Assembly: GCA_022841375.1 (NCBI GenBank)
Contig: JALHRQ010000010.1
Span: 62,001-126,000, forward strand
Source of the DNA: Burkholderiales bacterium
GTDB lineage: Bacteria; Pseudomonadota; Gammaproteobacteria; Burkholderiales; SG8-41
DNA length: 64,000 nucleotides
Direction of reading: 5' to 3'
In this document: positions 23,841 through 45,608 of the stretch, one piece after another
Layout of the letters: each line of letters starts with the position of its first letter
Position numbering within the stretch: the first letter of the stretch is position 1
The notes under the pieces: generated by a model
Told to the model about the DNA's origin: nothing
The model's database searches: none
The model's input: the letters and a program-made list of their open reading frames with translations, nothing else
Made by a program: the position numbers and the translations under genes

Positions 23841-24005
23841 GATTTCCTCCTGGTTGTTTTATGGCATGCGGGACCGGCATTATCGGGGTAAATCTCCCAC
23901 CCGATCAACCGCATTTACCTGTAACAACGCGAGCGGGATAAAATCCGCTGACCCGTCTTAATTATGTGATGCCTGATGCGGCATTGCGCCATTTTGGAGT
24001 TCTTT

Positions 24006-28044: not shown

Positions 28045-28722
28045 TTACTGCTGCGGCGTTACCGCTGCGGGGGCTGGTGTCGCTGGGGCTGCTGATGTCG
28101 CTGGGGCTGCTGATGCTGCTGCGGGGGCTGATGCCGATGCGGGTGCGGGTGCGGGTGCGGGTGCGGGTGCGGGTGCGGGTGCGGGTGCGGGTGCGGGTGC
28201 GGCAACAGGAGCAGGCTCCACGGGCAGCTCGTCCATCACGCCCTCCAGTTCGCACTGATCGCGGCCACGTGTGACTGTCAGGCTGCCGGTGATCTTGCCG
28301 GGCATGCCGCAGAAACGTTCACGGTCAATGTCACGAAACAAAAATTTGACGAACTGCTTCTCGTGATCGATGAGAAAGGATCCCTTCTCCTCTTTCAGCG
28401 TAACGATGGTCACGTGACCGGTGTCTTCCCATTTACTGTAGGCGTCGTCACGGACGATGTGCACCGAGCAGGTCCGCGGTTTCCACTTTGAGTAATAAGC
28501 GATGCTCTTGGTGCGGCCTCCAATCAGCTCAACCGCAATACGTGCGTGACGATCCTCGGTGCCCAGCTTGCACGTCAGCTTCTCCAGCTTGCCCTTCATC
28601 ACTGTGCCTTGCGGCTTCTGCTGTGACTTCTGCTTCGGCGCGCTTTGCTGGGCAGCGACAGGCGCTGCCAGCAATACCGCGAATACTAAACAAGATATTT
28701 TTTTAATTGATAAATAGTTCAT
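28045..28722 (-). CDS. Secreted protein with C-terminal Pro-Ala repeat tail
   Basis: From the ATG at 28722 this is 225 residues. It has a signal peptide (MNYLSIKKISCLVFAVLLAAPVAAQ), a Gln/Lys-rich linker, then a folded domain of about 120 residues with paired cysteines (KLTCKLGTEDRHARI, TCSVHIVRDDAYS, ERFCGMPGKITG, RDQCELEGVMDELP). The last 55 residues are almost only Ala, Pro and Ser. An alternative start at 28746 would overlap the IDH-like stop (TGATG) and couple the two. No family is recognised. The Ala-Pro tail is encoded by a pure hexanucleotide repeat. Confidence 0.65.
   Translation of the reverse strand: MNYLSIKKISCLVFAVLLAAPVAAQQSAPKQKSQQKPQGTVMKGKLEKLTCKLGTEDRHARIAVELIGGRTKSIAYYSKWKPRTCSVHIVRDDAYSKWEDTGHVTIVTLKEEKGSFLIDHEKQFVKFLFRDIDRERFCGMPGKITGSLTVTRGRDQCELEGVMDELPVEPAPVAAPAPAPAPAPAPAPAPAPAPASASAPAAASAAPATSAAPATPAPAAVTPQQ
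28141..28200. repeat. Hexanucleotide tandem repeat, (GGGTGC)x10
   Basis: Sixty bases are ten exact copies of GGGTGC, reading GCACCC (Ala-Pro) on the coding minus strand. Just beside it (28083-28125) are two or more imperfect 18-base CTGGGGCTGCTGATGTCG units. Exact copies with no synonymous drift imply recent expansion. Slippage would change the tail length by two residues without a frameshift. Confidence 0.95.
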
Positions 28723-28745
28723 ATCACTGTTGGGGGTTAAGACCA

Positions 28746-29801
28746 TCAGATCGCCGCCGCAATGGCATCGCCCATCTGCGTGGTGCTCGCATTGCCGCCC
28801 AGATCACCGGTCAGATTTTTGGCTTCGGCAACCACCTTGTCGACCGCGGTATCCATCAGTTTCGCGGCAGCTGTCGCCTTCGCATCATTGCGCGTGCGAC
28901 CCAGCCATTCGAACAGCATCATGCCGGACATGATCATCGCGTACGGATTGGCGATGTTCTTGCCGGCGATGTCCGGCGCCGAGCCGTGCGTGGCCTGCGC
29001 CATTGCCTGTTTCTCGCCGACCACCAATCCCGGCGCCAGCCCCAGACCGCCGACCAGACCCGCACCCAGGTCGGTCATGATGTCGCCGAACTGGTTGGTG
29101 GTGACCACCACGTCATACTGCTGCGGCTTCATCACGGCCTTCATCGCAAAACCGTCGATCAACACTTCCTCGAATTCGACGTCGGGATAATTTTTCGCCA
29201 TGTTGCGGCACTCCTGCGCAAACATGCCGCAGACCAGCCGGTAGACCGGCTCCTTGTGCAATGCGGTGACCTTCTTGCGCTTGCGCGTACGCGCAATTTC
29301 GAACGCCTCGCGGGCGACGCGGCTCGCGCCCTTGCGCGTGACCACGCGCATGCCGATGGCGATGTCATCGTTGGGCTGGAATTCGCCGGTGCCGGCAAAC
29401 ACCACGCTGCTCGACTGCATGCCTTCGGTGGTCTCGCGCAGGAACACGATGTCCACGTTCTTGTGCAACGACGGCAGGTTGGGATAGGACTTCACCGGCT
29501 TGACGTTGGCGAAGAGTTCAAATTTCTTGCGCAGCGGCGGATTGATCCAGGTGTTGTCATGCCGCGGATAAACATTGTGGCCGATCGGGCCCTGCACCCA
29601 GCCGTCGACCGTCTTCAGCGTGTCCACTGTCACTTGCGGCATCGTGTGGCCGTGTGACTCATGGCCCTTGCGTCCGATCGGCAAGGGCAGCCATTCGATT
29701 TGCACACCGGCTTTCGCTGCGGCCGCTTTCATTACCTTTACACATTCCGGCACCACCTCCAGACCAATGTCGTCGCCTTCCAATATTCCTATTTTGTACA
29801 C
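28746..29801 (-). CDS. Isocitrate/isopropylmalate dehydrogenase family protein
   Basis: The GTG at 29801 follows AGGAG by 7 nt and begins MYKIGILEGDDIGLEVVPEC. The product is 351 residues. The metal/substrate-binding Arg lies in RETTEGM, the Lys-Tyr region is KVTALHKEPVYRL, the Asp ligands are in TTNQFGDIMTDLGAGL, and THGSAPDIAGKNIANP is the NAD-binding tail. These enzymes oxidatively decarboxylate 2-hydroxy acids with a 3-carboxylate. The same family occurs at 59684. It is the eighth gene of the long minus-strand operon. Confidence 0.9.
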   Translation of the reverse strand: MYKIGILEGDDIGLEVVPECVKVMKAAAAKAGVQIEWLPLPIGRKGHESHGHTMPQVTVDTLKTVDGWVQGPIGHNVYPRHDNTWINPPLRKKFELFANVKPVKSYPNLPSLHKNVDIVFLRETTEGMQSSSVVFAGTGEFQPNDDIAIGMRVVTRKGASRVAREAFEIARTRKRKKVTALHKEPVYRLVCGMFAQECRNMAKNYPDVEFEEVLIDGFAMKAVMKPQQYDVVVTTNQFGDIMTDLGAGLVGGLGLAPGLVVGEKQAMAQATHGSAPDIAGKNIANPYAMIMSGMMLFEWLGRTRNDAKATAAAKLMDTAVDKVVAEAKNLTGDLGGNASTTQMGDAIAAAI

Positions 29802-29854
29802 TTCCCTGCTCCTTTGCACTCTGTCGTTATTCAACGACATGCGTTTGACTGCAG

Positions 29855-30832
29855 CTATTCAGTGATATCGCCGATCTGCTTGACCACCTGCACAAAGCGT
29901 TCGTTCTGTTCCTTCATGAACGTGGTGAATTCTTCGGGGGAATTGCTGACGATGACCTCCGCCCCGCTGTCGTTGATGCGTTTGATCACTTCGGGATCCG
30001 CCATGGTTTTGACGGCAGCAGCAAACATCCGCTCGATCATCGCGCGCGGCGTCCCGGTCGGGAAGTACACACCCTGCCAGGATCCGGTTTTCATATCCTT
30101 GAAGCCCAGTTCCGGCATGGTCGGTACATCGGGCAAGGCCTTCACCCGCCGGACTGCGGACACACCGAGGATTTTCATCTTGCCGTTGCGCACATGGGGC
30201 ATCACCGAGGCGATACTGACAAACGCCACGCCGACTTCACCGGTCAGCAGTGCGGTGGCCGCAGCACCGGCGCCGCCCTTGTACGGGATATGCACCAGAT
30301 CAATGCCGGCCAGCTTCATGAACTGCTCCATCTCCAGCCTGCCGTTGCTGCCGGCGCCGGCGGAACCGTAATTGAGCTTGCCTTTGTGCAATTTGGCGAA
30401 AGCAATGAATTCCTTCATCGTTTTCACCGGAACCGAAGGATGCACCGCCAAACCCACCGGCACGTCGACAACCTGCGTCACCGGAACAAAATCACGCACC
30501 GGACGCACCGGGAATTTCGGAAAGATGCTCGGGTTGATCGCCATGGTGCCGATGTTGCCGAGCAGGAAGGTGTAGCCGTCGGGCGGCGCTTTCGCCGCGA
30601 CTTCGACACCGATGTTGCCGGAAGCACCTGCCCGGTTATCGATCAGGATCTGCTGACCAAGCTCCTGTTGCAGCCGCGGCTGCATCAGACGCCCTACCAG
30701 ATCCGATGCGCCACCCGGTGCAAAAGGCACCACCATGCGCACCGCGCGCACGGGATAAACATCCGCTGCCTGCACCGGCAGCGCCATGACGAGCGCCAGC
30801 GCGCCCCCTATCATTGCTGTTTTTCTGTTCAT
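29855..30832 (-). CDS. Bug family periplasmic receptor
   Basis: This 325-residue protein has signal peptide MNRKTAMIGGALALVMALPVQAAD. Bug motifs are YPVRAVRMVVPFAPGGASDLVGR, IDNRAGASGNIGVEVAAKAP and VHIPYKGGAGAA. An upstream in-frame ATG at 30841 is possible. It sits between the oxidase and the IDH-like gene in the operon, so it is a candidate importer component for that pathway's substrate. Confidence 0.9.
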   Translation of the reverse strand: MNRKTAMIGGALALVMALPVQAADVYPVRAVRMVVPFAPGGASDLVGRLMQPRLQQELGQQILIDNRAGASGNIGVEVAAKAPPDGYTFLLGNIGTMAINPSIFPKFPVRPVRDFVPVTQVVDVPVGLAVHPSVPVKTMKEFIAFAKLHKGKLNYGSAGAGSNGRLEMEQFMKLAGIDLVHIPYKGGAGAAATALLTGEVGVAFVSIASVMPHVRNGKMKILGVSAVRRVKALPDVPTMPELGFKDMKTGSWQGVYFPTGTPRAMIERMFAAAVKTMADPEVIKRINDSGAEVIVSNSPEEFTTFMKEQNERFVQVVKQIGDITE

Positions 30833-30860
30833 CCTGCCCATCCTGTTGATTGGTTTTTTG

Positions 30861-32087
30861 TTATGCAGACCGCTCAGCTTTTCGCTTTACCGCTGCTTCG
30901 AGCAGCGGATAGGCGCTGACCGGACCCGGCGTACCGAGTATCGGCACTTCGCGCAGCCATTGCGGCCCCAACTGCTTGATCGAGGTCACGCCCATCAGAC
31001 CCATCGCAGTACGCACTTCGAGTTCCATCAGCTCCAGCATGCGCGCCACACCGGCCTCGCCGCCCGCGCTCAAGGCCAGGCCCAGCAGCTTTCCGACGCC
31101 TACTGCGCTCGCACCCAGGCACAACATCTTCACCACATCGGTGCCGCGCTGCACGCCGCCGTCGGCGAGCACTTCGGCGCGACCGGCCACCGCCTTGACC
31201 ACCTCGGCCAGCACTTCAATGCTGCCCTGCGCATGATCAAGCTGGCGTCCGCCGTGATTGGACACGTAGACCACATCCGCGCCGTGTTCGATCGCCAGTA
31301 CGGCATCTTCCGCAGTGGCAATGCCCTTGGCGATCAGCGGCAGTCCCACGCGCTCCTTCATCCACACCAGGTCTTTCCAGTTCAGGCTGGCCTGGTAGGA
31401 CTGGTCGCCGAACCCTTCCTTGACCGGCAGACCGCTGACGATATCGCGCTCGCGGCGGCCGTAGAAATTGCGGTCCACCGTCACGCACAACGCGCCGTAT
31501 TCGGCCTTGCGCACGCGATCGAGTATGCCTTCGATCCAGGTCCGGTCGCCGCGAACATAAAGCTGGAATACCAGTTTTTGCTTAACGGCCTCCTGCGCCG
31601 CTTCCAGACTGGGCTTGGCCGCCGTAGCGATAAACGCCGTGGTGCCGCGCGACACCGCGGCACGCGCCACTGCAGGCCCCCCTTCGTTGTGAACCTTGCC
31701 CAGGAAACCCCCTACCGGCGCCGGGAACACCGGGAACGCCAGTTTCTGACCGAGCAGCGTGGTGCCCAAGTCAATGTTGCGGACGTCAACCAGCACGCGC
31801 TGACGCAGCGCCAGCGCATCAAGACCGGCGCGGTTGCGCCGCAGGGTCATCTCCGAATCGGCGCCACCCATCAGGTGATCCCATACCGGCGCCGGCAGCT
31901 TGCGATGCGCGGCGAGCGCGATTTCCTGAAGGGTGTCGAACTGACCGGGCGCTTTTTTCTCCAGGCCCAGCGGATTGGAAGTTTTTCTGGCGGGTTTCGC
32001 GGCGCTGGCGTTAGCGGCCGGTTTGCGAGCCGGGGATTTTTTACCCGCGGCTTTACTGAGGGATTTTTTGACAGGGGCTACGGCCAT
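30861..32087 (-). CDS. FMN-dependent alpha-hydroxy-acid oxidase with Lys/Ala-rich N-terminal extension
   Basis: This 408-residue protein begins with about 45 residues rich in Lys, Ala and Pro (MAVAPVKKSLSKAAGKK, then ARKPAANASAAKPARK) that the family lacks and that look disordered and strongly basic. The TIM barrel follows: PVFPAPVGGFLGKVHNEGG, LCVTVDRNFYGRRERD, PLIAKGIATAEDA, catalytic VSNHGGRQLDHAQG and VLADGGVQRGTDVVKML. The conserved Tyr before GGA (Y-x-x-GGA) is His here (DHLMGGADSE). It likely oxidises a 2-hydroxy acid made in this pathway. AAGGACC precedes the ATG. Confidence 0.88.
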   Translation of the reverse strand: MAVAPVKKSLSKAAGKKSPARKPAANASAAKPARKTSNPLGLEKKAPGQFDTLQEIALAAHRKLPAPVWDHLMGGADSEMTLRRNRAGLDALALRQRVLVDVRNIDLGTTLLGQKLAFPVFPAPVGGFLGKVHNEGGPAVARAAVSRGTTAFIATAAKPSLEAAQEAVKQKLVFQLYVRGDRTWIEGILDRVRKAEYGALCVTVDRNFYGRRERDIVSGLPVKEGFGDQSYQASLNWKDLVWMKERVGLPLIAKGIATAEDAVLAIEHGADVVYVSNHGGRQLDHAQGSIEVLAEVVKAVAGRAEVLADGGVQRGTDVVKMLCLGASAVGVGKLLGLALSAGGEAGVARMLELMELEVRTAMGLMGVTSIKQLGPQWLREVPILGTPGPVSAYPLLEAAVKRKAERSA

Positions 32088-32140
32088 TGCAATGGTCCTT
32101 CGTTCGGTGAGACTTAACGGTATTTTAATTATTTATTAAT

Positions 32141-32154
32141 AAACAAATACTTAT
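32141..32154 (+). repeat. AT-rich element, copy 2 (core AAACAAATACTTAT)
   Basis: The 14-base core lies within a 50-bp AT-only-like island (about 32112-32160) separating the lyase and FMN-oxidase genes. The core is identical to 9121-9134 and, inverted, 61261-61274. It is the widest gap in the operon (80 bp), so it may hold an internal promoter or processing site. Confidence 0.6.
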
Positions 32155-32167
32155 AAATTCATGCAGT

Positions 32168-33064
32168 TTATTGCCGATTCAGCAGGAAGCGTTTTTCCCA
32201 CTGTTCCACGCCATCCAGTCCGAGCACCTCGTTGTATTCCCTGGACGACAGCATGCGATCACGCACCGCCGCGGTATTGCCGTCGCGCTTCAGAGTGCCC
32301 AGAGCATTCTTGATCGCAAATCCGGCGGCATTGCGTGCCAGCCCCGGGAATATGGCCAGACGGAATCCGAGTTGTTCAATTTCCGGCACCGTCAGTTCAC
32401 CCAGCTTGCCGCCGCCGTCGATATTGACCAGGCACGGCGCGTCGGTTTCCGTGGTCACGCGTTTCAGATCATCGAGGATGGTCGGGCTGTTCTTCAGTTC
32501 GACAAACACCACATCGGCACCGGCTTTGCGGTAGGCCTGACCGCGGCGGATCGCCTCATCCAGTCCGAGGCCGCCCGCGGCATCGGTGCGCGCAATGATG
32601 ATGAAGTCCGGATCCCGGCGCGCCGCAGCCGCCGCTTCGATCTTGCCGACATGTTCTTCCATCGCCACCACCGGCCGCGAGCCCGGCAGATGGCCGCAGC
32701 GTTTGGGCGCGACCTGGTCCTCGATATGAATCGCGGCAACACCCGCGTTTTCGAATTCGCGCACGGTATGCCACACGTTCACCGCGTTGCCATAACCGGT
32801 GTCGGCATCGCAGATCAGCGGAATGTTCACGCAGGCTGCCGCGCGATGCGCATGCGCGGCAAACAAGGTCAGGTCAACCAGGCCGACGTCGGGCTGGCCG
32901 AGCAGACAGGCAGACACGCCGTTGCCGGTCATGTACACCGCCTCAAATCCGGCCTGCTGCACCATCCGCGCGCCGTAAGCGTCGTAAATGCCCGGCGCCA
33001 CGATCATGCCGCCTTCGGTCAGCCGCTTGCGCAACTGCTGTCGTACCGTAAGATTTGCCGCCAC
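32168..33064 (-). CDS. Isocitrate lyase/PEP mutase family C-C lyase (methylisocitrate/dimethylmalate lyase-like)
   Basis: A GTG start gives 298 residues. The Mg-binding motif is CDADTGYGNAVNVWHTVREF. The catalytic loop reads EDQVAPKRCGHLPGSRPV, keeping the Cys of the K-R/K-CGH motif that marks true lyases of the family. IIARTDA and FVELKNSP follow. Such enzymes split 2-hydroxy-3-carboxylates (methylisocitrate, dimethylmalate, petal-death substrates) into a 2-oxo acid and a smaller acid. With LeuCD-like hydratase genes in the operon, a 2,3-dimethylmalate-type lyase is my best guess. No strong ribosome site. Confidence 0.87.
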   Translation of the reverse strand: MAANLTVRQQLRKRLTEGGMIVAPGIYDAYGARMVQQAGFEAVYMTGNGVSACLLGQPDVGLVDLTLFAAHAHRAAACVNIPLICDADTGYGNAVNVWHTVREFENAGVAAIHIEDQVAPKRCGHLPGSRPVVAMEEHVGKIEAAAAARRDPDFIIIARTDAAGGLGLDEAIRRGQAYRKAGADVVFVELKNSPTILDDLKRVTTETDAPCLVNIDGGGKLGELTVPEIEQLGFRLAIFPGLARNAAGFAIKNALGTLKRDGNTAAVRDRMLSSREYNEVLGLDGVEQWEKRFLLNRQ

Positions 33065-33089
33065 GTTTTATGCTCTCGATGTCGAAGTG

Positions 33090-34046
33090 TTACTGTGAAT
33101 CGGTCAGACCGAGCTTCTTCTTCACCGCCTCGGTTTCCTTGATGTCCTGCGCCAGCTGGGCGCGGAATGCATCCGGCCCCTGGAACCCGTCGAGCTGCGA
33201 CACCCGCGTCAGATATGTCTTCCATTCCTGGGTCTGCTGCGCCTTCTGGATTGCTGACGCCAGCCGGTCCACGACCGGTTTCGGCGTGCCGGCCTTCACC
33301 ATGATGCCGCGCCACTGGTAACGCACGACATCCCAGCCTTTTTCCTTGTAGGTCGGCACGTCGGAAAAATCCTCCAGGCGCTTGTCCGAAGACACCGCCA
33401 GCACACGCACCTTGCCGGCATCGATCATCGGCTTGACGTTGCCCGGATTCGTTGCCGCAGCATCGATATGGCCGCCGGCAATCGCGGTCAGTGCCGGCCC
33501 GCCGCCCTGATACGGCACCCAGGTGGTCTTGAACTTAGCCACATCCGAAAACACTTCCCACGCCACGCGGTGCGCGCTGATCGCAAACGGCCCGCCGATG
33601 TTCAGGTAATCCGGCTTCTTGCGGGCAAAGGCGACAAACTGCTCCAGCGTCTTGAACGGCGTCGAGGTATGCACGATCAGGCCGTACGGATCGATCTGCG
33701 AACGCGCCACCATCTGCAGGTCGTCCAGCTTGAATTGCGCGGTCTTTTCGCTGAACAGCGTTGCCAGCGACAATGTATTCGCGGCGATGGTGTAGCCATC
33801 GGCGGCGCCGCGCACCAGCATATTGACCATGACGATGCCCGATCCGCCGGTGCGGTTCTCCACCACCACGTTCTGACCCAGTTCCGGCGTCACCAATTTG
33901 GCCAGCGTCCGTGCATAAATATCCACCGGCGAACCCGCAGCAGACCAGCACAGGATGGTGATCTGCTTGTTCGGATAAGTCTGAGCCTGTGCCAGACCGG
34001 CAAGCCCGGCGAGCGTCAGCAATGCAACGATACGCTTGAGCTTCAT
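33090..34046 (-). CDS. Bug family periplasmic receptor
   Basis: This 318-residue protein has signal peptide MKLKRIVALLTLAGLAGLAQAQ. The first binding loop is unusual: ITILCWSAAGSPVDIYARTL instead of the PFxPGG consensus. VENRTGGSGIVMVNMLVRGA follows. The changed loop suggests a ligand unlike that of the other Bugs. GAGGAGG precedes the ATG. It lies between the MLE-like and lyase genes of the operon. Confidence 0.88.
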   Translation of the reverse strand: MKLKRIVALLTLAGLAGLAQAQTYPNKQITILCWSAAGSPVDIYARTLAKLVTPELGQNVVVENRTGGSGIVMVNMLVRGAADGYTIAANTLSLATLFSEKTAQFKLDDLQMVARSQIDPYGLIVHTSTPFKTLEQFVAFARKKPDYLNIGGPFAISAHRVAWEVFSDVAKFKTTWVPYQGGGPALTAIAGGHIDAAATNPGNVKPMIDAGKVRVLAVSSDKRLEDFSDVPTYKEKGWDVVRYQWRGIMVKAGTPKPVVDRLASAIQKAQQTQEWKTYLTRVSQLDGFQGPDAFRAQLAQDIKETEAVKKKLGLTDSQ

Positions 34047-34097
34047 GTATTCCTCCTCGAATCAATGCCGCGCCTGCCGGAAATCGGCGGCGCTGTT

Positions 34098-35219
34098 TTA
34101 TTTGACTTCGAACTTGAATTTGGCCAGCTGCGCGTCGTCCAGCGTCACGCCCAGACCCGGCCCGTCCGGAAGCGCAATGCTTCCTTTCGACAGATCCAGC
34201 TTTTGCGTAACGATGTCTTCCTTGGTTTTCAGCGGACCCACGCATTCGAGGCCGTCGATCACGTTGCTGGACGTCGCCGCAAGCATGATTTCCGCCATCG
34301 TATTCACGCCCAGACCAAAACCATGACCGACCACGCAGCGGATGCCTGCCGCTTCCGCGGTGGCGATCATGCGCCGGGTATTGAGGAAGCCGCCCTGCTT
34401 CATCACCTTGACCTTGACGATGTCGGCAGCGTCCATGCGGATGATGTTGATCAGGCTGGCGTGGTCGATCACCGACTCGTCGGCCATGATCGGCACGCCT
34501 ACGGCATTGGCCGCCTTGCGAACCCGTGCCATGCCGGCAATGTCATCCGCCGGCACCGGTTGCTCGAACAACTGCAGATTGTACGGCGCGACCAGTTCGG
34601 CGAGCTTGATTGAAGTGTCGGCATCGTAACCGGCGTTGGCGTCGATGCGGATGTTGAACTCCGGACCGCAGGCCTCGCGCACCGCCTTGATGCGGTCACG
34701 GTCGGCGTAAATGTCGCCGCCGACTTTGATCTTGCAGGACTTGAAACCTTTTTTCTGCCAGTCCGCCGTTTCCTTCGCGGCATTCTCCGGCGACTGGATG
34801 CTGATCCAGGCATTGAACATCAGCCGGTCCTTCACCGCGCCGCCAAGATAGGTGTACACCGGCATGCCCGCCACGCGCGCCGACAGATCGGTGCAGGCCA
34901 TATCGATGGTGGCCTTGGCGTCATAAAAATCCGCCACCACTGCATCCATTTTCGCGGTCAGGCGATGGATGTTGGTCGGGTCCATGCCGATCACTGCCGG
35001 TGCGAGTTTGGCCTGGAGCATTTTCAGGCTGTCTTCAATGGTTTCCTTGGAGTAGCCCGGCGTCGGATCGATGTTGCCGTAACCGACCACTCCGCCTGTC
35101 GCGGTGACGCGCACCACGGCGCTTTTTACCACCGACTTCGACAGATAGGCGTTTTTGAACTCCATGACCAGCGGCATGGCCACGCCAAAGACTTCGACTC
35201 GTTCGATTTTCAGGTTCAT
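34098..35219 (-). CDS. Enolase-superfamily enzyme, muconate-lactonizing/dipeptide-epimerase subgroup
   Basis: From the ATG at 35219 this is 373 residues. An N-terminal capping domain (MNLKIERVEVFGVAMPLVM) precedes the barrel. Catalytic lysines are in FKSCKIKVGGD (KxK) and opposite in IVKVKVMKQGG. Metal ligands are Asp in IRIDANAGYD, Glu in LFEQPVPADD and Asp/Glu in IMADESVID. Two Lys bases mark the MLE subgroup rather than mandelate racemase. It catalyses proton abstraction next to a carboxylate (cycloisomerisation or epimerisation). Overlap ATGA with the LeuD-like gene shows coupling. Confidence 0.9.
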   Translation of the reverse strand: MNLKIERVEVFGVAMPLVMEFKNAYLSKSVVKSAVVRVTATGGVVGYGNIDPTPGYSKETIEDSLKMLQAKLAPAVIGMDPTNIHRLTAKMDAVVADFYDAKATIDMACTDLSARVAGMPVYTYLGGAVKDRLMFNAWISIQSPENAAKETADWQKKGFKSCKIKVGGDIYADRDRIKAVREACGPEFNIRIDANAGYDADTSIKLAELVAPYNLQLFEQPVPADDIAGMARVRKAANAVGVPIMADESVIDHASLINIIRMDAADIVKVKVMKQGGFLNTRRMIATAEAAGIRCVVGHGFGLGVNTMAEIMLAATSSNVIDGLECVGPLKTKEDIVTQKLDLSKGSIALPDGPGLGVTLDDAQLAKFKFEVK

Positions 35220-35728
35220 GCGGTTTGCTCCTTGAGATTCCAGTCCGGATGTTTTTGCAGGAACGGAATCAGTCCGCCCGCTTCCAGCAAAGCCTGCACT
35301 GCGGCCGGCAACGGCGGCACGGCGCGGACAATGTTTTTGGCCGGCACGGCAATACTTCCGCCAGCCAGATCGACTTCCAGCGCATCTCCGGCAACGATGC
35401 CGCTGATGTCGCATTCGATTACCGGCATGCCGTTGTTGATCGCGTTGCGGTAGAACTGGCGTCCGAAACTCGGCGCGATGATCGCCGCCACGCCCATCTG
35501 GTGCATCACATGCACAGCCTGCTCGCGCGATGAATTGATGCCGAAATTCTCGCCGGCCACAATGATGTCGCCCTTGATGAAGGTTTTGGCGAAACCCGGC
35601 GCGACGTTATCGAAAGCCACTGTGGCAATGAACGCGGTGTCTTTGCCCGGCAGATATTTGCTGGAGCAATGGATGTCGGTGCTGACCTCTTTGCCAAGGA
35701 TGCGGGCACTGCCTTTGATGATTTTCAT
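35216..35728 (-). CDS. LeuD-like aconitase-superfamily small (swivel) subunit
   Basis: At 170 residues this matches archaeal-type small subunits and DmdB rather than the roughly 200-residue LeuD of leucine biosynthesis. Motifs are ARILGKEVSTDIHCSSKYLP, GDIIVAGENFGINSSREQAVH (the substrate-binding SSREQA loop) and VIAPSFGRQFYRNAINNGMP. With the next gene it forms a [4Fe-4S] hydro-lyase for small hydroxy-di/tricarboxylates. It is translated 9 bp after the large subunit. Confidence 0.9.
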   Translation of the reverse strand: MKIIKGSARILGKEVSTDIHCSSKYLPGKDTAFIATVAFDNVAPGFAKTFIKGDIIVAGENFGINSSREQAVHVMHQMGVAAIIAPSFGRQFYRNAINNGMPVIECDISGIVAGDALEVDLAGGSIAVPAKNIVRAVPPLPAAVQALLEAGGLIPFLQKHPDWNLKEQTA

Positions 35729-35737
35729 GTGTCGATC

Positions 35738-37033
35738 CTATGCTGCTGCGCGCCAGTCGCCACCGGCGACGGTGCGTGCATCGGTAATCAGCCCTGTCAG
35801 CGCAGACGCAGCCACAGTTGCCGCCGAGCCGATCCAGATTTCCGACTTCGGATTGCCAAGGCGCCCCTTGAAATTGCGGTTGGCGCTGGAAATCACCACC
35901 TGATCGTCGCCGGCGATGTAATGTCCGGTGATATTGACGCAGGTGCCGCAGCCCGCGGCCTCGACCGAAGCGCCGGCGGCCGTGAGAATTTCGAACAGGC
36001 CTTCGCGCAGTGCCGTCAGATAAATCGCCCGCGACGCCGGCGTGACGATCATGCGCACGCCTTTGGCGAGTTTTTTGCCTTTGAGAATTGCCGCAGCCTG
36101 GCGGATGTCGTCGAGGCGGCCGTTGGTGCAGGTGCCGATCAGCGCGACCTGAATTTTTTGGCCGGCGACGTCGGGCACTGCGACCACATCATCGATGTTG
36201 TGCTGGCGCGCCACCTGCGGCGCCAGCTTCGCGGTGTCGATGACGATACGTTGCGTGTAAACCGCATCGGCATCGGCTTTCACCGGTTGCGGCGCCGCGG
36301 CGCCATGCGCCTTCAGCCAGGCAAAGGTTTTTTCATCGGCTTCAAGCAGCGCCGCCTTGGCGCCCAGTTCCGCCGCGTGGTTGGACAGCGTCATACGGTC
36401 GTCGATGGCCATTGCCGCGACGCCGCTGCCGCAATATTCCAACGCCTGGTAATTCGCACCCTCGGCGCCCAGCCGGCCGAGCATGGTCAGCGTGACATCC
36501 TTGGCCCACACGCCCGGCTGCAATGCGCCGTTCAATTCAATACGGATGGTCTCCGGCACGCGGAACCACAACTTGCCGGTCATCATCACCGCCGACACGT
36601 CGGTGCCTTCAACGCCGGTGCCGAAGGCATTAAAAGCGCCATAGGTCGTCGAGTGGGTATCGGTGCCGACAACCAGGTCGCCGCAGGTCAGATGACCGCC
36701 CTCAGGCAATACCTGATGGCAGATGCCGTCGCCGACGTCATACAACGGTGAACCGTGTTTGTCGGCAAAGGCGCGCATCGCCACATGGGTATTGGCCGCT
36801 TCCATATTGGGCGGCGGCGAATAATGATCCAGCACCAATGCGGTGCGTTTGACATGGGGCAACGCAAAGTCAGCCCGGCCTGCGCCGAGCTTTTCGATCA
36901 TTTTCAGCGCGTTGCCGGCACGCGCGTCATGGATCATCGCGAAATCAACGTCCGCAACGACAATTTCACCGGCCTTGGCCGGTTTGCCGCCCGCGTGATG
37001 GCCGAGAATCTTCTCGGCGATGGTATGACCCAT
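35738..37033 (-). CDS. LeuC-like aconitase-superfamily large subunit
   Basis: At 431 residues it is nearer the archaeal LeuC/homoaconitase/DmdA type than bacterial LeuC (about 470). Cluster ligands appear as GTCTNGRLDD and AAGCGTCVNITG. GTDTHSTTYGAFNAFGTGVEG and HVKRTALVLDHYSPPPN are family hallmarks, the latter with a shortened HSP region. It is a [4Fe-4S] dehydratase. AGGAGG lies 7 nt before the ATG. It is the first gene of the long minus-strand operon (to 28045), implying a catabolic role separate from leucine synthesis. Confidence 0.9.
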   Translation of the reverse strand: MGHTIAEKILGHHAGGKPAKAGEIVVADVDFAMIHDARAGNALKMIEKLGAGRADFALPHVKRTALVLDHYSPPPNMEAANTHVAMRAFADKHGSPLYDVGDGICHQVLPEGGHLTCGDLVVGTDTHSTTYGAFNAFGTGVEGTDVSAVMMTGKLWFRVPETIRIELNGALQPGVWAKDVTLTMLGRLGAEGANYQALEYCGSGVAAMAIDDRMTLSNHAAELGAKAALLEADEKTFAWLKAHGAAAPQPVKADADAVYTQRIVIDTAKLAPQVARQHNIDDVVAVPDVAGQKIQVALIGTCTNGRLDDIRQAAAILKGKKLAKGVRMIVTPASRAIYLTALREGLFEILTAAGASVEAAGCGTCVNITGHYIAGDDQVVISSANRNFKGRLGNPKSEIWIGSAATVAASALTGLITDARTVAGGDWRAAA

Positions 37034-37327: not shown

Positions 37328-38197
37328 TCAGAATCCGTACAGCTTTGCGGGATTTTCCACCAGAATTTTTCTGCGCATCGTCTCGTCATCGCAGAATTTT
37401 GCGAACAGATCGACCAGTTCGCCATCGTTCGGCATGATCTTGACGTTCGGGTGCGGAAAGTCGGTGCCCCACAATACGCGTTCCGGTGCAGCGGCAATCA
37501 GTTCGCGCACAAACGGCTCGGCGTCGTGAAACGGCTTGCCCGCAGATGAAATCCGTTCCGGGCCACTGACCTTGGTCCACGCCAGCGGATTCCGCATCAG
37601 GTCGAGCATTTGCAGGAATGCATCCTGTTTCACACCAAGCTTCGCTTCAGGACGCCCCATGTGATCGATGATGAACGGAATCCTGAGGCTGTCGAGAAAT
37701 GTGCGGTACTGCCGGATGTCATGCGCATCCAGGTGCAGCTGGAGATGCCAGCCGAAAGGCGTGATGCGATCGGTCACCGCTGTCACCGCAGCCATGTCCG
37801 GGGCGCCGCCCAGATGCGCGACAAAGTTGATACGCGCACCGCGCACGCCACCGGCGTGCAGCCGTTCCAGTTCCTTCTCACTTGCATCGGGCCTGACCAT
37901 GGCCACGCCGCGCCAGGCGCCGTCTGAATGTGCCAGCGCGTCGAGCATGGCGCTGTTGTCAGTGCCATGACAGCTGGCCTGGACAATGATCGCGCGGGAA
38001 AAACCAAGGTGTTTATGCAGCGCAGCCAGCCGTTCACGCCCTGCATCCTCGGGCGTATAGCTGCGGTTGGGCGCATAAGGAAACTTCGCCGCCGGGCCGA
38101 ACACATGGCAATGCCCGTCACAGGCATCCGCTGGCGTCGTGTATTTGGGTTTGACCGGATTGGGGTCCGGGGCAAGGATGGTTTTCGGGGCGCTCAT
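37328..38197 (-). CDS. Amidohydrolase, 2-pyrone-4,6-dicarboxylate lactonase (LigI)-like
   Basis: From the ATG at 38197 this is 289 residues of the TIM-barrel amidohydrolase group containing LigI. Sites seen are DGHCHVFGPAAKFPY (HxH), QASCHGTDN, LQLHLDAHD, FIIDHMGRPEAK and LWGTDFPHPN (catalytic Asp). LigI hydrolyses 2-pyrone-4,6-dicarboxylate in protocatechuate 4,5-cleavage; homologues hydrolyse other lactones. The ATG overlaps the stop of the upstream Bug gene (ATGA), so that receptor and this hydrolase are coupled. A LigJ is encoded at 47785. Confidence 0.85.
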   Translation of the reverse strand: MSAPKTILAPDPNPVKPKYTTPADACDGHCHVFGPAAKFPYAPNRSYTPEDAGRERLAALHKHLGFSRAIIVQASCHGTDNSAMLDALAHSDGAWRGVAMVRPDASEKELERLHAGGVRGARINFVAHLGGAPDMAAVTAVTDRITPFGWHLQLHLDAHDIRQYRTFLDSLRIPFIIDHMGRPEAKLGVKQDAFLQMLDLMRNPLAWTKVSGPERISSAGKPFHDAEPFVRELIAAAPERVLWGTDFPHPNVKIMPNDGELVDLFAKFCDDETMRRKILVENPAKLYGF

Positions 38198-41167: not shown

Positions 41168-42052
41168 TCAGTAAGTGGCAATTCCCAGCATCGCCCGCGC
41201 CTGATCTGTCGTCGCCGGCTCTCGCCCCACCGCACGACCGAGCTCCGCGAAACGCCGCACCAGCTCTGCGTTGGTCGGGCAACCCAGTTCCGGATAGGGA
41301 TAATCACCGATGCCCGGCGCCAGGTGGCCATTGCGGTCCAGTGCGGTTGAGGCCACGTTGAACAGATTGCCCTCCTTGCAAGCCACCGTCCATTCGATAC
41401 GGCGTTGCGGCGGCAGGAAATCGATCAACGCTTCCAGGCCGCGGGTCGTGCAGGGATGCGCGCCGACAATACCGCCCTCGGCCAGCACGCACTGCACATA
41501 AGCCGGCTCCTTGATCGCGCCCATGTCGAGAAAGGCATCGACCATGCGCACAAAAGGCACCGCCCACACCGACAGGTGCGGCTTGACGCCGGCATCGGTC
41601 ATGCCCTTGGCGAGAAACAGGCAGGTCTCGGTGCTGTTCTTGTATATTTTGTTGGTGGTGAGAAATTTTTTCTGCACCGGGTCGTAGGCATCGATATTGC
41701 TGCTGCCGGTGTCGACCGCGGCAAAATCCGGTCTGGTGCTGTTCTTCTGCCCCATCAGCTTGATGTGGGCCAGACGGTTCTCGTCTTCATTGACGGTGAT
41801 CTGACCCAGCGTCGAATCGATCAGAATGTCGGTCTTCTCACGGATCTTGGCGACGATCTCGGCATAGACCTCGGGCTCGTGGCATTTGCCGCCGTCGGGC
41901 TTGCGCGCATGGAAATGGATGATCGAGGCGCCGGTAGCGCGGCATTCCGCTGCCGTCTCGGCAATCTCGTCCGGCGTGAACGGCACGTTTTTGTTGATAT
42001 CGCGCGACATGTATTCATTGATGCGCACGGTGATGATCAGTTTCTTGGACAT
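41168..42052 (-). CDS. BKACE family protein (3-keto-5-aminohexanoate cleavage enzyme-like)
   Basis: At 294 residues this is a BKACE family zinc enzyme, which condenses a beta-keto acid with acetyl-CoA to yield acetoacetate and a new CoA ester. The HxH zinc ligands are in ASIIHFHARKPDG; a Glu ligand is probably in TVACKEGNLFN, although typical family members have GLEDN here. That substitution makes substrate prediction unsafe. It lies 181 bp upstream of the receptor gene at 39994. An inverted repeat separates it from the aldolase gene. Confidence 0.85.
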   Translation of the reverse strand: MSKKLIITVRINEYMSRDINKNVPFTPDEIAETAAECRATGASIIHFHARKPDGGKCHEPEVYAEIVAKIREKTDILIDSTLGQITVNEDENRLAHIKLMGQKNSTRPDFAAVDTGSSNIDAYDPVQKKFLTTNKIYKNSTETCLFLAKGMTDAGVKPHLSVWAVPFVRMVDAFLDMGAIKEPAYVQCVLAEGGIVGAHPCTTRGLEALIDFLPPQRRIEWTVACKEGNLFNVASTALDRNGHLAPGIGDYPYPELGCPTNAELVRRFAELGRAVGREPATTDQARAMLGIATY

Positions 42053-42213: not shown

Positions 42214-42981
42214 TCAGTTTTTAACAGTATTTAACCGCCGACAGACATCCAAGAACAGATGCCCGTCAGTGCCGAGCACGATGGCCTGAACGCCGCGGTT
42301 GCGCACCGACTTGCCGTATACCGGGTCCGGTTTGTTGCCGATGGTGGTCATTACGTATTTGCCGTGTTTGCGCGTCGCAGCAACGACTTTCTCCAGCGCC
42401 GCAGCCATTTTCGGTTCGTCAAACGTCGCATGCGGCACGCCCAGCGCAATCGACAGATCGGTCGGTCCGATGAAAAACACTTCCAGACCCGGCATCGCCG
42501 CCATCGCCTCAAAATTCTGCAGCGTCGACTGGTCTTCGATCAGCGGGATCACCATCAGCTCGTCATTGGTCATGCGCACATGTGCGGTCCAGTCGCCCGG
42601 CGAATAACCCGCCGAACGCACGATGGTGCATGCGCCGCGCTCGCCTTCGGGTGCATATCGCGCGTAATCGAGTGCTTTCGCGCAGTTCCCGGTAGTAGCG
42701 TGCGAGATGGCAATGCCGGCCACACCCATATTCATCAACTTGAGAATCAGCGTACGTTCAACATCGGCGATGCGCACGAAAGGCGTAATACCCGCAGCGT
42801 CGGCGGCGCGAACGACGTGGGCACAGGTATCAAAATCCAGCGCGCTGTGCTCCATGTCGATGATTACGAAATCAATGCCGGCCGCGGCGGCCAGTTCGGT
42901 GATCATCGGACTGCCGCTGAACAGGATCAGACCGGTGACGGTATCGCCCCGCTGCAGTGCGGCACGGATGGGATTTTTCAT
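42214..42981 (-). CDS. HpcH/HpaI family class II aldolase
   Basis: From the ATG at 42981 this is 255 residues. It has the pyruvate-aldolase layout: FVIIDMEHSALDFD (catalytic His), PFVRIADVER (substrate Arg), VIPLIEDQSTLQN (metal Glu) and FFIGPTDLSIALG (metal Asp). HpcH-type enzymes split 4-hydroxy-2-oxo acids to pyruvate and an aldehyde. An N-terminal extension to 43107 would run into the divergent gene and is unlikely. Divergent from the PrpD gene by 131 bp. Confidence 0.88.
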   Translation of the reverse strand: MKNPIRAALQRGDTVTGLILFSGSPMITELAAAAGIDFVIIDMEHSALDFDTCAHVVRAADAAGITPFVRIADVERTLILKLMNMGVAGIAISHATTGNCAKALDYARYAPEGERGACTIVRSAGYSPGDWTAHVRMTNDELMVIPLIEDQSTLQNFEAMAAMPGLEVFFIGPTDLSIALGVPHATFDEPKMAAALEKVVAATRKHGKYVMTTIGNKPDPVYGKSVRNRGVQAIVLGTDGHLFLDVCRRLNTVKN

Positions 42982-43112: not shown

Positions 43113-44549
43113 ATGACCAAAGAATACGCACTGACCGCCGAAGTCGCCCGTTTTGTCACTCGCACGCAAGCGGGGCGCATCCCCCGCAAGGTGATGCATC
43201 TGGGTAAACGCTCGCTGCTCGACGGCCTCGGCCTCGCACTTGCCGGCAACGTCGCCGAATCCGGTCATGTGATCCGCAATTACCTGAAAACCCTGGGTGT
43301 GCCGCTGAACAGCGGCGCCACCGTGATTGGCACCGCGCTCAAAGTGCCGCCGCGTTTCGCCGCATTTGCCAACGGCATCGCCATTCATGCCGACGACTAC
43401 GACGACACCCAGCTCGCCGTCGCCAGTGATCGCGTCTATGGTCTGCTTACCCACCCCACGGCGCCAGCGCTGCCCGCGGTGCTCGCGCTGGCCGAACGCG
43501 ACAACCGTTCCGGCCTTGACCTGCTCTGCGCATTCCAGATCGCTGTTGAAGTCGAAACCAAACTCGCTGAAGCCATCAATCCACGGCATTACGCCGATGG
43601 TTTTCATTCGACGGCAACGCTGGGCGTGATCGGTGCCGCCGCGGGCGCAGCGCGTTTGCTCGGGCTCGATATCAATCAAACCGCACAGGCGCTGAGCCTC
43701 GGCGCCAGCCAGGCCGCGGGTTTGCGCGAGAACTTCGGCACCATGACCAAACCCTTTCATCCGGGCCGCTCGGCCGAGTCCGGCGTGATGGCCGCCGAAC
43801 TGATCAAACTCGGCTGGACCGCGGCGCCCAATGCGCTGGAAGCCAAACGCGGTTTTTTCAATGCCGCGGGCGGTGGTTATAACCCTGCTGCCATCCAAGG
43901 CAAACTCGGCAAACCGTGGACCTTCGCGATGCCCGGCGTGTCGATCAAACCGCATCCCAGCGGCTCGCTGACCCATCCCGGCATGGGTGTGATGCTGGAA
44001 CTTGTGCTCAAACACGACATCAAACCTTCGCAAGTTGTAAAAGTCCGGGTCGGCACCAACCGCCACATGCCGAATACGCTGATCCATCGCCGCCCGAAAA
44101 ACGAATTGCAGGCTAAATTCAGCATGGAGTTCTGCATGGCCATCCTGCTTCTCGAACGCAAAGCCGGGCTCGCCGAATTCACCGACCCCATCGTCAACCG
44201 CGCCGATGTGCAGCGCATTATTAGCCTTATCGATTTCGGCGTACATCCCAGGGCCGAAGCAGCCGGTTATGAAAAAATGACCACCATCATCGACATTGAA
44301 TTGAAGGACGGCCGCACCATCAGTGGCAGCGCCGACTTCGGCAAGGGCAGCCCGGCCAATCCGATGAGCGACGATGAGGTCGCAAACAAATTTATCGAAT
44401 GCGCCACCTGGGGCGGGCTGTCAAAAACCGGCGCCGGGAAAATCATTGATATGGTGTTCAATCTCGAAAAACTCCGCAGCACCCGTGAACTGACCCGGTT
44501 GCTGGCCATCGCCCCGCGCCGCAAAAGCCCGGCAAAAGCAAAAAAATAG
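43113..44549 (+). CDS. MmgE/PrpD family protein
   Basis: This complete 478-residue member has GKRSLLDGLGLALAGN near the N-terminus, ANGIAIHADDYDDTQ (the active-site DD with Asp/His) and DGFHSTATLGVIGAAAGAAR and PFHPGRSAESGVMAA further on. Members dehydrate 2-methylcitrate or decarboxylate cis-aconitate; this one may act on another tricarboxylate. No ribosome site is seen. It begins a plus-strand group with PdxA-like, two Bug and LigJ genes. Confidence 0.88.
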   Translation: MTKEYALTAEVARFVTRTQAGRIPRKVMHLGKRSLLDGLGLALAGNVAESGHVIRNYLKTLGVPLNSGATVIGTALKVPPRFAAFANGIAIHADDYDDTQLAVASDRVYGLLTHPTAPALPAVLALAERDNRSGLDLLCAFQIAVEVETKLAEAINPRHYADGFHSTATLGVIGAAAGAARLLGLDINQTAQALSLGASQAAGLRENFGTMTKPFHPGRSAESGVMAAELIKLGWTAAPNALEAKRGFFNAAGGGYNPAAIQGKLGKPWTFAMPGVSIKPHPSGSLTHPGMGVMLELVLKHDIKPSQVVKVRVGTNRHMPNTLIHRRPKNELQAKFSMEFCMAILLLERKAGLAEFTDPIVNRADVQRIISLIDFGVHPRAEAAGYEKMTTIIDIELKDGRTISGSADFGKGSPANPMSDDEVANKFIECATWGGLSKTGAGKIIDMVFNLEKLRSTRELTRLLAIAPRRKSPAKAKK

Positions 44550-44579
44550 ACTAAAATCGTGGTCCCTATTGGAGCATCC

Positions 44580-45608
44580 ATGACCACCCTCCCCCGCATC
44601 GGATTTATGCTCGGCGACGTCACCGGGATCGGCCCGGAAATCGCCGCCAAACTGCTGGCCTCCGGCAAACCCGCCGCCTGCGCCGAAACCATCATCATCG
44701 GCGACCGCCGCGTGCTTGAACTGGGCATGCGCAACGCCGGCGTCAAATTTGCCTACAGCGTTTGCAAAAGCATCGATGACATCCGCTGGCCGCGCAAGGA
44801 TTACCCACTGATCGATCTCGGCAACATCGACCCGGCCCAATACCCGCAAGGCGTTTCTTCGGATGAATCCGGCAAATTGACCGGCGACACGCTGAAAGTC
44901 ATGATCGACCTCGCCATCGCCGGCAAACTCGACGGCATCAGCTTTGCTCCACTGAACAAGGGCGCAATGAACCGCGGCGGCTGGAAGTTCAATGACGAAC
45001 ACCAGATGTTTGCCAGCCTGCTCAACCACAGCGGCTTTTTCGGTGAAATGAACGTCATTGACCAGTTCAGCACTTTCCGCGTCACCTCGCATGTCGCACT
45101 GCGCGAAGCCGTCAACATGATCAGCCCGGAGCGCATCACCGCAGCCGTCAACCTGGCCAACGACACGTTGCGCGCCGCCGGCAAAACCAACCCGCGTCTC
45201 GGCGTCGCCGCGCTGAACCCGCACAACGGTGAAAACGGCCTGTTTGGCGATGAAGAAATCCGTATCATCCGCCCGACGGTCGACAAACTGCGCGCCAGCG
45301 GCATCAATTGCGAAGGGCCAATTTCCTCCGATGTAATTTTCCTGAAGGCACTGAAAGGCGAATTCGACGGTGTGGTGATGATGTACCACGACCAGGGCCA
45401 GATCGCGACCAAGCTGCTCGGCTTCAACAAGGGCGTCACCGTCACCGCCGGACTCCAATCGGTGTTTACCACCCCGGCGCACGGCACCGCCTATGACATC
45501 GTCGGCCAGGGCAAGGCCGACGTTGGCGCCATGGAACACGCCTTCATCCTAGCCGCGCGTATGGCCGCCGGACGCAAAGCAGCCAAAGCCGCAACCGCCG
45601 CCGCCTGA
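44580..45608 (+). CDS. PdxA-family NAD-dependent dehydrogenase (PdxA2/TphB-like)
   Basis: From the ATG at 44580 (GGAG upstream) this is 342 residues. Zinc ligands are the His residues in LLNHSGFFGEMNV, AALNPHNGENGLFG and VVMMYHDQGQIATKLLG; DVTGIGPEIAAKLL and PAHGTAYDIVGQGKAD are family hallmarks. PdxA makes a pyridoxal precursor; relatives oxidise D-threonate or the cis-diol of terephthalate (TphB). With Bug receptors (as in TphC) and LigJ nearby a catabolic role is more likely than vitamin B6 synthesis. Confidence 0.87.
   Translation: MTTLPRIGFMLGDVTGIGPEIAAKLLASGKPAACAETIIIGDRRVLELGMRNAGVKFAYSVCKSIDDIRWPRKDYPLIDLGNIDPAQYPQGVSSDESGKLTGDTLKVMIDLAIAGKLDGISFAPLNKGAMNRGGWKFNDEHQMFASLLNHSGFFGEMNVIDQFSTFRVTSHVALREAVNMISPERITAAVNLANDTLRAAGKTNPRLGVAALNPHNGENGLFGDEEIRIIRPTVDKLRASGINCEGPISSDVIFLKALKGEFDGVVMMYHDQGQIATKLLGFNKGVTVTAGLQSVFTTPAHGTAYDIVGQGKADVGAMEHAFILAARMAAGRKAAKAATAAA

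Follow-up and report, generated by a model that had tools for sequence, protein, structure and literature searches.

A conserved nine-gene operon of a Burkholderiales bacterium joins LeuC/LeuD-type and isocitrate-lyase-type genes with an isocitrate-dehydrogenase-like enzyme that lacks the catalytic tyrosine

What compound might be degraded by a gene set that combines a LeuC/LeuD-type hydro-lyase, an isocitrate-lyase-type (ICL-type) lyase, a flavin mononucleotide (FMN)-dependent oxidase and an isocitrate-dehydrogenase-like (IDH-like) enzyme with two periplasmic receptors? The question is raised by nine genes in a 64,000-nucleotide stretch of a Burkholderiales bacterium (GenBank assembly GCA_022841375.1, contig JALHRQ010000010.1, positions 62,001 to 126,000), called the window below; it is part of contig C10 in a host genome of 4.08 Mb and 66 contigs. 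The operon is real, conserved and metabolically coherent. The sequences demonstrate its gene content, its conservation, the linkage of LeuC/LeuD with the lyase and a series of residue changes. With a probability of roughly 0.6, these genes make up the core of an operon for the breakdown of a di- or tricarboxylic acid substituted at C2 and C3 of the succinate/malate skeleton.

Organization of the operon

Nine open reading frames (ORFs) lie on the minus strand, from 37033 down to 28045 of the window. In the order of transcription they are:

35738..37033, minus strand: LeuC/HacA-type large subunit of a [4Fe-4S] hydro-lyase, first of the nine (Aconitase 304 bits; TIGR01343 455 bits)
35216..35728, minus strand: LeuD/DmdB-type small subunit (Aconitase_C; TIGR02087 135.9 bits)
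34098..35219, minus strand: enolase-superfamily enzyme, MLE subgroup (MR_MLE_C 190 bits)
33090..34046, minus strand: Bug/TctC periplasmic receptor 1 (TctC 162 bits)
32168..33064, minus strand: isocitrate-lyase/PEP-mutase superfamily lyase (PEP_mutase 165 bits)
30861..32087, minus strand: FMN-dependent 2-hydroxyacid oxidase/dehydrogenase (FMN_dh 344 bits)
29855..30841, minus strand: Bug/TctC periplasmic receptor 2, a variable member (TctC 227 bits)
28746..29840, minus strand: NAD-type enzyme of the IDH/isopropylmalate-dehydrogenase fold (Iso_dh 273 bits)
28045..28722 (ORF to 28746), minus strand: Pro-Ala protein, probably exported, last gene (no family match)

A preliminary description of the window had placed these nine ORFs on one strand with the same coordinates and families, and all of this agrees with the Pfam and NCBIfam matches and the ORF coordinates. 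The tight spacing reported there is likewise seen. LeuC and LeuD are 9 bp apart, and LeuD overlaps the MLE gene by 4 bp (ATGA). The following gaps are 51 bp (MLE to Bug 1), 25 bp (Bug 1 to lyase), 80 bp (lyase to FMN oxidase), 19 bp (FMN oxidase to Bug 2) and 14 bp (Bug 2 to IDH-like gene). The IDH-like gene overlaps the last gene by 1 bp; with the ATG at 28722, just before the signal peptide, as the start of the last gene, a gap of 23 bp results instead. None of the 21 listed terminator-like sites falls within the gaps of the nine genes on the minus strand. Six promoter-like matches were found across the region, one of them inside the 80-bp gap between lyase and FMN oxidase; this total is close to the shuffled level (mean 4.9, standard deviation 2.0). 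The LeuC ATG is preceded by AGGAGG and the next gene upstream is 294 bp away.

Conservation of the gene set

A scan of GTDB species genomes for the IDH-like protein returned 55 loci. The records of 38 of these have Burkholderiales, Betaproteobacteria, beta proteobacterium or Bordetella in their titles; the other 17 come from records of Alpha- and Deltaproteobacteria, unspecified Proteobacteria and a metagenome-assembled genome labelled Chitinophaga (two loci). Gene content was counted in the 54 loci with an IDH-like identity of at least 60% (L088, at 52%, was dropped). Fourteen loci combine an identity of at least 85% with at least 8.5 kb of upstream sequence. LeuC, LeuD, the first Bug gene and the lyase are present in all 14, the MLE gene and the FMN oxidase in 13 each, and the second Bug gene in 8. 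When two short loci (L034, L038) are added, in which both neighbours of the MLE slot are visible and MLE is absent, the MLE count becomes 13 of 16. In all 15 loci with 4 kb of downstream sequence the Pro-Ala gene is present and a family III coenzyme A (CoA) transferase comes after it in the opposite orientation; in the window this transferase occupies 23976-25223 on the strand opposite to the operon, and it may belong to the pathway.

This comparison of gene order across relatives bears out the earlier claim of one conserved set, with core genes in 13-14 of 14 close loci, and places the nine-gene arrangement beyond chance. At an IDH-like identity of 79-84% both loci with sufficient upstream range keep LeuC, LeuD and the lyase, and at 60-78% (n=12) LeuC and LeuD are found together in two loci and the lyase in three. 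The complete operon is confined to a single clade; its core is found slightly beyond it. Loss or replacement affects the MLE gene, the second Bug gene and the FMN oxidase.

Pairing of the hydro-lyase with the lyase

A search of 300 genomes of the order detected 96 LeuC-like places (E≤1e-45), spread over 44 genomes. At least 32 of them have an ICL-superfamily lyase in the same orientation no more than 10 kb away, and for at least 23 the distance is no more than 2 kb; the pairs come from 26 genomes of 8 families. These counts are lower bounds, since the best few candidates per genome were scored and the lyases were the best 150 matches. About 0.7 such co-locations would be expected by uniform placing in genomes of an assumed 4.5 Mb. 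The five opposite-strand lyases within 2 kb are each a second lyase gene beside a pair already counted. The 16 nearest LeuC orthologues divide into 10 with a lyase no further than 10 kb away, five at contig ends and one in genome G055 (locus L105). The host genome holds a second LeuC-lyase pair at C6:185-187 kb, and a Roseomonas plasmid (L124) carries the series LeuC, LeuD, lyase, iron alcohol dehydrogenase and Bug.

The hydro-lyase and the lyase had been proposed as a linked pair, which their proximity in 26 of 300 genomes corroborates. Because this neighbourhood extends well beyond the clade of the operon, it supports a predicted hydrate-then-cleave core analogous to that of DmdAB and dimethylmalate lyase. 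LeuC orthologues at E≤1e-100 occur in 15 of the 299 other genomes of the order. At E≤1e-110 none was detected in a phylum sample of 397 other genomes, and among plasmids of named bacteria the best LeuC match was 44% identical.

Residues of the hydro-lyase, lyase and MLE-subgroup enzyme

For the residue alignments one copy per identical protein was kept, matches covering less than 85% of the query were dropped and one row derived from a wrong ORF (L142) was excluded. The catalytic residues of LeuC, LeuD, MLE and the lyase are conserved among their homologues, which counts in favour of the substituted-acid pathway.

The LeuC-like protein scores above the TIGR01343 cut-off (455 vs 386 bits) and its Fe-S cysteines C302, C362 and C365 are present in 38/38 homologues. 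The LeuD-like protein exceeds the cut-off of the LeuD/DmdB family TIGR02087 (135.9 vs 108.95 bits). The pair thus has the three cysteines and the small subunit expected of a DmdAB-type hydratase. Comparison of 40 LeuD homologues revealed that the substrate loop reads S-K-Y-L-P-G-K-D in the window and A-K-Y-N-M-G-K or A-K-Y-N-I/V-G-K in group g15, and therefore the substrates probably differ between groups of relatives. Against the leucine equivalogs the operon proteins score far below the cut-offs (leuC 211 vs 560, leuD 47 vs 116, leuB 205 vs 353 bits), and the host has a true leuC and a true leuB (767 and 513 bits) side by side at G000:C1:232.8-236.1 kb. A role in leucine biosynthesis, one of the outcomes that the preliminary description had named as fatal to its own proposal, was ruled out on these grounds. 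Five genes of the host genome are over the leuC equivalog cut-off (on C1, C2, C10 and C15, two of them adjacent on C15), and several HacA-type copies exist besides.

The lyase has the D-x-D and K-[KR]-C-G-H motifs of its superfamily (the latter as K-R-C-G-H) with the catalytic Cys. D86, D88, K121 and C123 are kept in 37/37 scorable sequences of 38 homologues, and the motif His in 33/37. The best solved matches are petal death protein, methylisocitrate lyase and, in third place, dimethylmalate lyase (3fa3, 172 bits). The substrate loop differs from all of these: it reads L-G in the window versus T-P in the aligned 1zlp, 3eoo and 3fa3 and in the host's separate true prpB (G000:C7:141918). T or P was found at these positions in 0/31 scorable homologues at ≥60% identity and in 4/6 below 60%. 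PrpB identity was dismissed, as the score against the prpB model (252.9 bits) is below the cut-off of 354.

In the third enzyme, the residues that we take to be the MLE-subgroup signature (K-x-K, D-E-D and a K on strand 6) are all in place, with the six catalytic residues present in 23/23 homologues. It is likely an epimerase, dehydratase or cycloisomerase. Muconate cycloisomerase was dismissed as its identity because the TIGR02534 score of 206.5 bits is under the cut-off of 335. A TauD-type dioxygenase gene is found beside the MLE orthologue in two relatives (L123:11119-13113, L114:2260-4254). L123 is a Variovorax plasmid from linuron-contaminated soil, and the MLE protein is 62% identical on two Variovorax plasmids.

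An IDH-like enzyme without the catalytic tyrosine

The IDH-like protein shares the fold, NAD-type motif, metal aspartates and catalytic lysine of isocitrate, homoisocitrate, isopropylmalate and tartrate dehydrogenases, but not their catalytic Tyr. An alignment of 86 distinct homologues was made, 82 of them at ≥45% identity and four below, with residue numbers and roles taken from E. coli IDH. The catalytic-Tyr column of the 82 contains Gln in 58, Leu in 8, Lys in 8, Met in 4 and a gap in 4. The Tyr is therefore replaced in 78/78 scorable homologues at ≥45% identity (Q142 in the window) and present in 4/4 below 45%. The Lys and the three metal Asp residues are kept in 84/84 scorable homologues. 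One substrate Arg is a Lys in 62/73 homologues at ≥60% identity, and the substrate-loop Ser of IDH is a Trp in 73/73 of these and likewise in 4/4 below 45%. The host's five IDH-family paralogues, true LeuB included, all have the Tyr (5/5), and one of them (L137) has an Asn at the third Asp. A second IDH/tartrate-dehydrogenase-like gene in the window (L135, 59684-60739, plus strand) retains the catalytic Tyr. Reportedly, a Lys-Tyr pair performs the acid-base chemistry of this enzyme class (Aktas and Cook 2009, by its title). The name IDH-like, given in the preliminary description, fits the fold family and understates how far the protein departs from it. The tyrosine-less subfamily was found in records titled Beta-, Alpha- and Deltaproteobacteria.

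The predicted structure has a mean confidence (pLDDT) of 89.6 and its best PDB match is homoisocitrate dehydrogenase (1x0l; E 2.9e-34, TM 0.86). Residues 129-139 of the model (141-151 of the protein), which hold and follow the replaced Tyr, have a pLDDT below 50, and because of this the model cannot show a substitute residue.

The FMN oxidase and MmgE/PrpD exclude each other

The FMN oxidase keeps the FMN_dh fold of the glycolate/lactate oxidase family and the equivalents of Tyr129, Arg164, Lys230, His254 and Arg257. It departs from the family at Tyr24 and Trp108 (spinach glycolate oxidase numbering), which we take to be active-site positions: these are His and Ala in 19/19 homologues at ≥60% identity, and the pocket is therefore predicted to be unlike that of glycolate or lactate oxidases. 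An L-lactate dehydrogenase model was also rejected for this protein, its score being below the cut-off.

Among 48 IDH-like loci (≥45% identity, ≥3 kb upstream), the FMN gene occurs within 5 kb in 17 and a same-strand MmgE/PrpD gene within 5 kb in 12, and the two were found together in none. In L049, L052, L055 and L088 MmgE lies between the lyase and the IDH-like gene, i.e. in the slot taken by the FMN gene at other loci; the other loci among the 12 have no comparable slot or a lyase further off. The mutual exclusion suggests a shared job. All 17 FMN-bearing loci have an IDH-like identity of at least 85%, and the exclusion may reflect one replacement event.

LeuC/LeuD, ICL-type lyases and IDH-type enzymes work on the same 1,4-dicarboxylate skeleton. 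According to two publications, characterised MmgE/PrpD substrates have a common 1,4-dicarboxylate backbone with C2/C3 substituents, and one family member is a (S)-(R)-methylsuccinate isomerase (PMC12290011, PMC9875883). Because all four enzyme types share that skeleton, the substrate of the operon is placed among C2/C3-substituted 1,4-dicarboxylates.

Receptors and the Pro-Ala protein

No TctA or TctB gene is present among the nine, so the operon does not encode a complete tripartite tricarboxylate transporter (TTT). The host genome contains nine TctA permease genes, the sole one on C10 being at C10:54988-56250, and at least 150 Bug/TctC genes (216 candidates, of which 150 were scored and all were above the cut-off). 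Bug/TctC expansions of a similar kind are described for Bordetella, Cupriavidus and Rhodoplanes (PMC5994714). Given at least 150 Bug genes in the genome, two in one operon are ordinary here. Both proteins are indeed TctC members, as first described, and little weight can be put on there being two, the second being found in 8/14 relatives.

The Pro-Ala protein has a signal-peptide-like start (called by eye), a conserved all-beta domain and a Pro-Ala tail, and is probably exported. Its domain is 58-94% identical in 17 relatives. It had no match in Pfam or NCBIfam, and among PDB sequences nothing matched it at an E-value below 0.5. A model built from an 18-sequence alignment (pLDDT 78) gave no PDB fold match at E≤0.001; the best, at E 0.24 and a TM of about 0.37, were fatty-acid-binding-protein-like barrels.

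Wider neighbourhood

The following window genes surround the operon:

37328..38197, minus strand: LigI/sulfomuconolactone-hydrolase-like amidohydrolase, a variable neighbour (1/14 loci; Amidohydro_2 191 bits; NF042924 232 vs cut-off 500)
41168..42052, minus strand: beta-keto acid cleavage enzyme (BKACE), upstream of LeuC (Pfam BKACE 206 bits)
42214..42981, minus strand: HpcH/HpaI-type aldolase, upstream of LeuC (Pfam 81 bits)
43113..44549, plus strand: MmgE/PrpD family protein, divergent (Pfam N 197, C 99 bits)
44580..45608, plus strand: PdxA-like dehydrogenase adjoining MmgE (PdxA 276 bits; pdxA equivalog 240, below the cut-off of 290)

HpaI and BKACE are found upstream of LeuC in 6/14 loci, where the flank was limited to 10 kb, and in 3/3 wider loci of the same genus (L116-L118). 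The latter also contain the divergent MmgE/PrpD-PdxA pair in 3/3 cases, as at 43113-45608 of the window; MmgE was additionally found in L042, L049 and L084, and PdxA in L049 and L084. The nine genes thus belong to a wider set that includes HpaI, BKACE and MmgE-PdxA.

More distant arrangements are diverse. In a group with small genomes (g20: L112, L114 and, partially, L115) TctA (with TctB in L114), MLE, TauD-type, LysR, MmgE, LeuC, LeuD, lyase and PdxA genes are linked, and the 20 kb read in L112 and L114 contain no IDH-like or FMN gene. TctA, TctB and LysR of these two loci were named by eye, and with 162 bits the TauD-like protein of L114 stays below the cut-off of 313. In L113 (group g15) molybdenum-hydroxylase genes lie between LeuC/LeuD and the lyase (12757-16543), the large subunit identified by family scan and the two small ones by eye. 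Two rhizobial plasmids carry MmgE, an AbrB-annotated protein, IDH-like and tartrate-dehydrogenase-like genes and PdxA together, with no LeuC/LeuD or lyase in the 17 kb read. On a 19-kb stretch of a Pacificitalea plasmid (L126:40-12920) five MmgE/PrpD genes and TctABC are found beside an IDH-like gene. The nine genes of the window represent one way in which a modular kit is put together. Naming the substrate from gene context was abandoned, as the contexts differ too much between families.

Proposed pathway

We infer every reaction, the order of reactions and the substrate class. A Bug receptor would bind the acid and pass it to a TctAB permease encoded elsewhere. The MLE-subgroup enzyme, with MmgE/PrpD where present, would remove the proton alpha to a carboxylate, leading to epimerisation or dehydration of the acid, after which LeuC/LeuD would hydrate the unsaturated acid or shift a hydroxyl between C2 and C3. 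The ICL-type lyase would then cut the C2-C3 bond of the 2-hydroxyacid, giving a 2-oxoacid and a shorter carboxylate. The FMN oxidase or the IDH-like enzyme would oxidise a branch 2-hydroxyacid, or a stereoisomer that the lyase is unable to use; the IDH-like enzyme would do so with NAD and without the usual tyrosine. Where linked, BKACE, HpaI and CoA-transferase reactions would deliver the fragments to central metabolism. The preliminary description had proposed a longer route for a branched hydroxy-di/tricarboxylate. The conserved set, the hydrate-and-cleave pair and the exclusion of leucine speak for such a route, and neither dimethylmaleate nor any other named substrate gained support.

A more specific reading is less likely than not: the operon might degrade a C2/C3-substituted acid of the succinate or citrate type by a CoA-free route that is as yet undescribed, with the IDH-fold enzyme as a new functional subfamily. 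This enzyme could then be a beta-hydroxyacid dehydrogenase that retained the lysine and the metal site, lost the Tyr that protonates the product and either oxidises without decarboxylating or decarboxylates with another proton donor; the FMN oxidase and MmgE/PrpD could be alternative means of supplying it with a substrate of the right stereochemistry or oxidation state.

Several observations weigh against the substituted-acid pathway as set out here. The conserved residues fix no particular substrate. The loop Trp of the IDH-like enzyme, unlike the residue in IDH, is common to tartrate-dehydrogenase-like homologues below 45% identity and, on this comparison, is not specific to the subfamily. 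The MLE gene is missing in L034, L038, L051, L049 and L052. Outside the close clade, linkage of the IDH-like gene to the lyase is lost: of 20 loci with an IDH-like identity of 60-78% and at least 3 kb of upstream sequence, 3 have a lyase within 8 kb. The LeuC orthologue of G055 (L105) is accompanied by LeuD and an MmgE paralogue, with no lyase in the 20 kb read. LeuC/LeuD and the lyase are paired with different extras in L113 and L124, so the substrate probably varies. The 300-genome sample behind the LeuC-lyase counts includes several close relatives, and its lyase matches are the best 150 listed.

Alternative explanations

The alternative closest to the substituted-acid pathway is a narrower version of it, in which the substrate is a substituted tricarboxylate (an alkylcitrate, homocitrate or methylated aconitate) that undergoes TcuAB-type desaturation, hydration by LeuC/LeuD or MmgE, cleavage of an isocitrate-like acid by the lyase and oxidation by the IDH-like enzyme. 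A TcuB-TcuA pair is indeed present in the window (52139-54674; TcuA 724 bits, cut-off 369; TcuB 414 bits by TIGR02484, over the cut-off of 247, though 490 by NF011607, under the cut-off of 524), and in L057 and L058 TcuA homologues lie close to the IDH-like gene, as they do near another host lyase (L146). However, the window pair is about 15 kb and many genes away from LeuC, and among 62 related loci of at least 8 kb TcuA homologues occur in 2, at 34-36% identity, and TcuB in none. The proximity is a hint, not a link, and with TcuA homologues in 2/62 loci this version was lowered to rather unlikely. Unlikely too is a loose neighbourhood, in which LeuC/LeuD, lyase and Bug form a unit and the IDH-like, FMN and MLE genes are independent catabolic genes in a carboxylate island. 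For each of the extra genes there are relatives that lack it or have it elsewhere, 17/20 IDH-like loci at 60-78% identity have no nearby lyase, and the host genome contains five leuC-equivalog genes as well as its 150 or more Bug genes. Against this stand the tight gaps and overlaps, the retention of LeuC, LeuD, the first Bug, lyase, MLE and FMN genes in 13-14 of 14 relatives, and the mutual exclusion of FMN oxidase and MmgE, which suggests a shared job.

A dimethylmaleate (or citraconate) pathway proper, with LeuC/LeuD as DmdAB, the lyase as dimethylmalate lyase yielding pyruvate and propionate (or acetate) and the rest accessory, is improbable. The LeuD/DmdB family score above the cut-off and the rank of 3fa3 among the solved lyases agree with it, whereas the L-G of the lyase loop and the K-Y-L-P-G-K-D of the LeuD loop do not. 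A Pfam scan of 30 window proteins detected no nicotinate-fermentation enzyme, and such a pathway would give no role to the IDH-like, MLE and FMN genes, conserved though they are. Hardly credible is that these are duplicate leucine or 2-oxoacid chain-elongation (LeuBCD) genes: LeuC, LeuD and a protein of the isopropylmalate dehydrogenase fold do share one operon, but all are far under the equivalog cut-offs, true leuC and leuB are together on C1, and the lyase and Bug genes would be unexplained.

Comparison with known systems

DmdAB and 2,3-dimethylmalate lyase belong to nicotinate fermentation in Eubacterium barkeri. The operon resembles this system, by family models, in pairing a LeuC/LeuD-type hydro-lyase with an ICL-superfamily lyase. 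It differs in the lyase loop and in the extra MLE, FMN oxidase, IDH-like, Bug and Pro-Ala proteins; nicotinate dehydrogenase, the mutase and methylitaconate isomerase were all absent from the 30 scanned window proteins. PrpF-family genes of the host genome are found on C1 and C20 only. The methylcitrate cycle (PrpB, AcnD/PrpF or PrpD) likewise has an aconitase-type hydratase and a PrpB-like lyase, and MmgE/PrpD is nearby in the window. Here the lyase is under the prpB cut-off (253 vs 354), the true prpB is separate and there is no citrate synthase among the scanned window proteins.

The Pseudomonas/Cupriavidus itaconate-methylsuccinate cluster handles branched C4-C5 dicarboxylates and includes an MmgE/PrpD isomerase, but it is CoA-dependent (transferase, hydratase, citramalyl-CoA lyase), whereas the operon has LeuC/LeuD and a lyase of a CoA-independent superfamily (PMC9875883, PMC12290011). 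The TTT receptor expansions of Bordetella and Rhodoplanes also contain orphan receptors without adjacent TctA or TctB (PMC5994714); here two such receptors are part of a single putative catabolic operon.

The preliminary description knew of no operon with this gene set, and literature searches aimed at the set or its core found none either, with subscription journals mostly uncovered. The hydrate-and-cleave core is already of a known kind, and it is its combination with MLE, the FMN oxidase and the tyrosine-less IDH-like enzyme that was not found in the literature searched.

Implications

The operon is a concrete case of a common pattern, in which LeuC/LeuD paralogues are found beside ICL-type lyases and orphan Bug receptors. 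Such patterns sit in genomes with more than 100 Bug receptors, whose substrates are mostly unassigned. The tyrosine-less IDH-like subfamily would, in turn, serve as a test for a natural exception to the Lys-Tyr rule.

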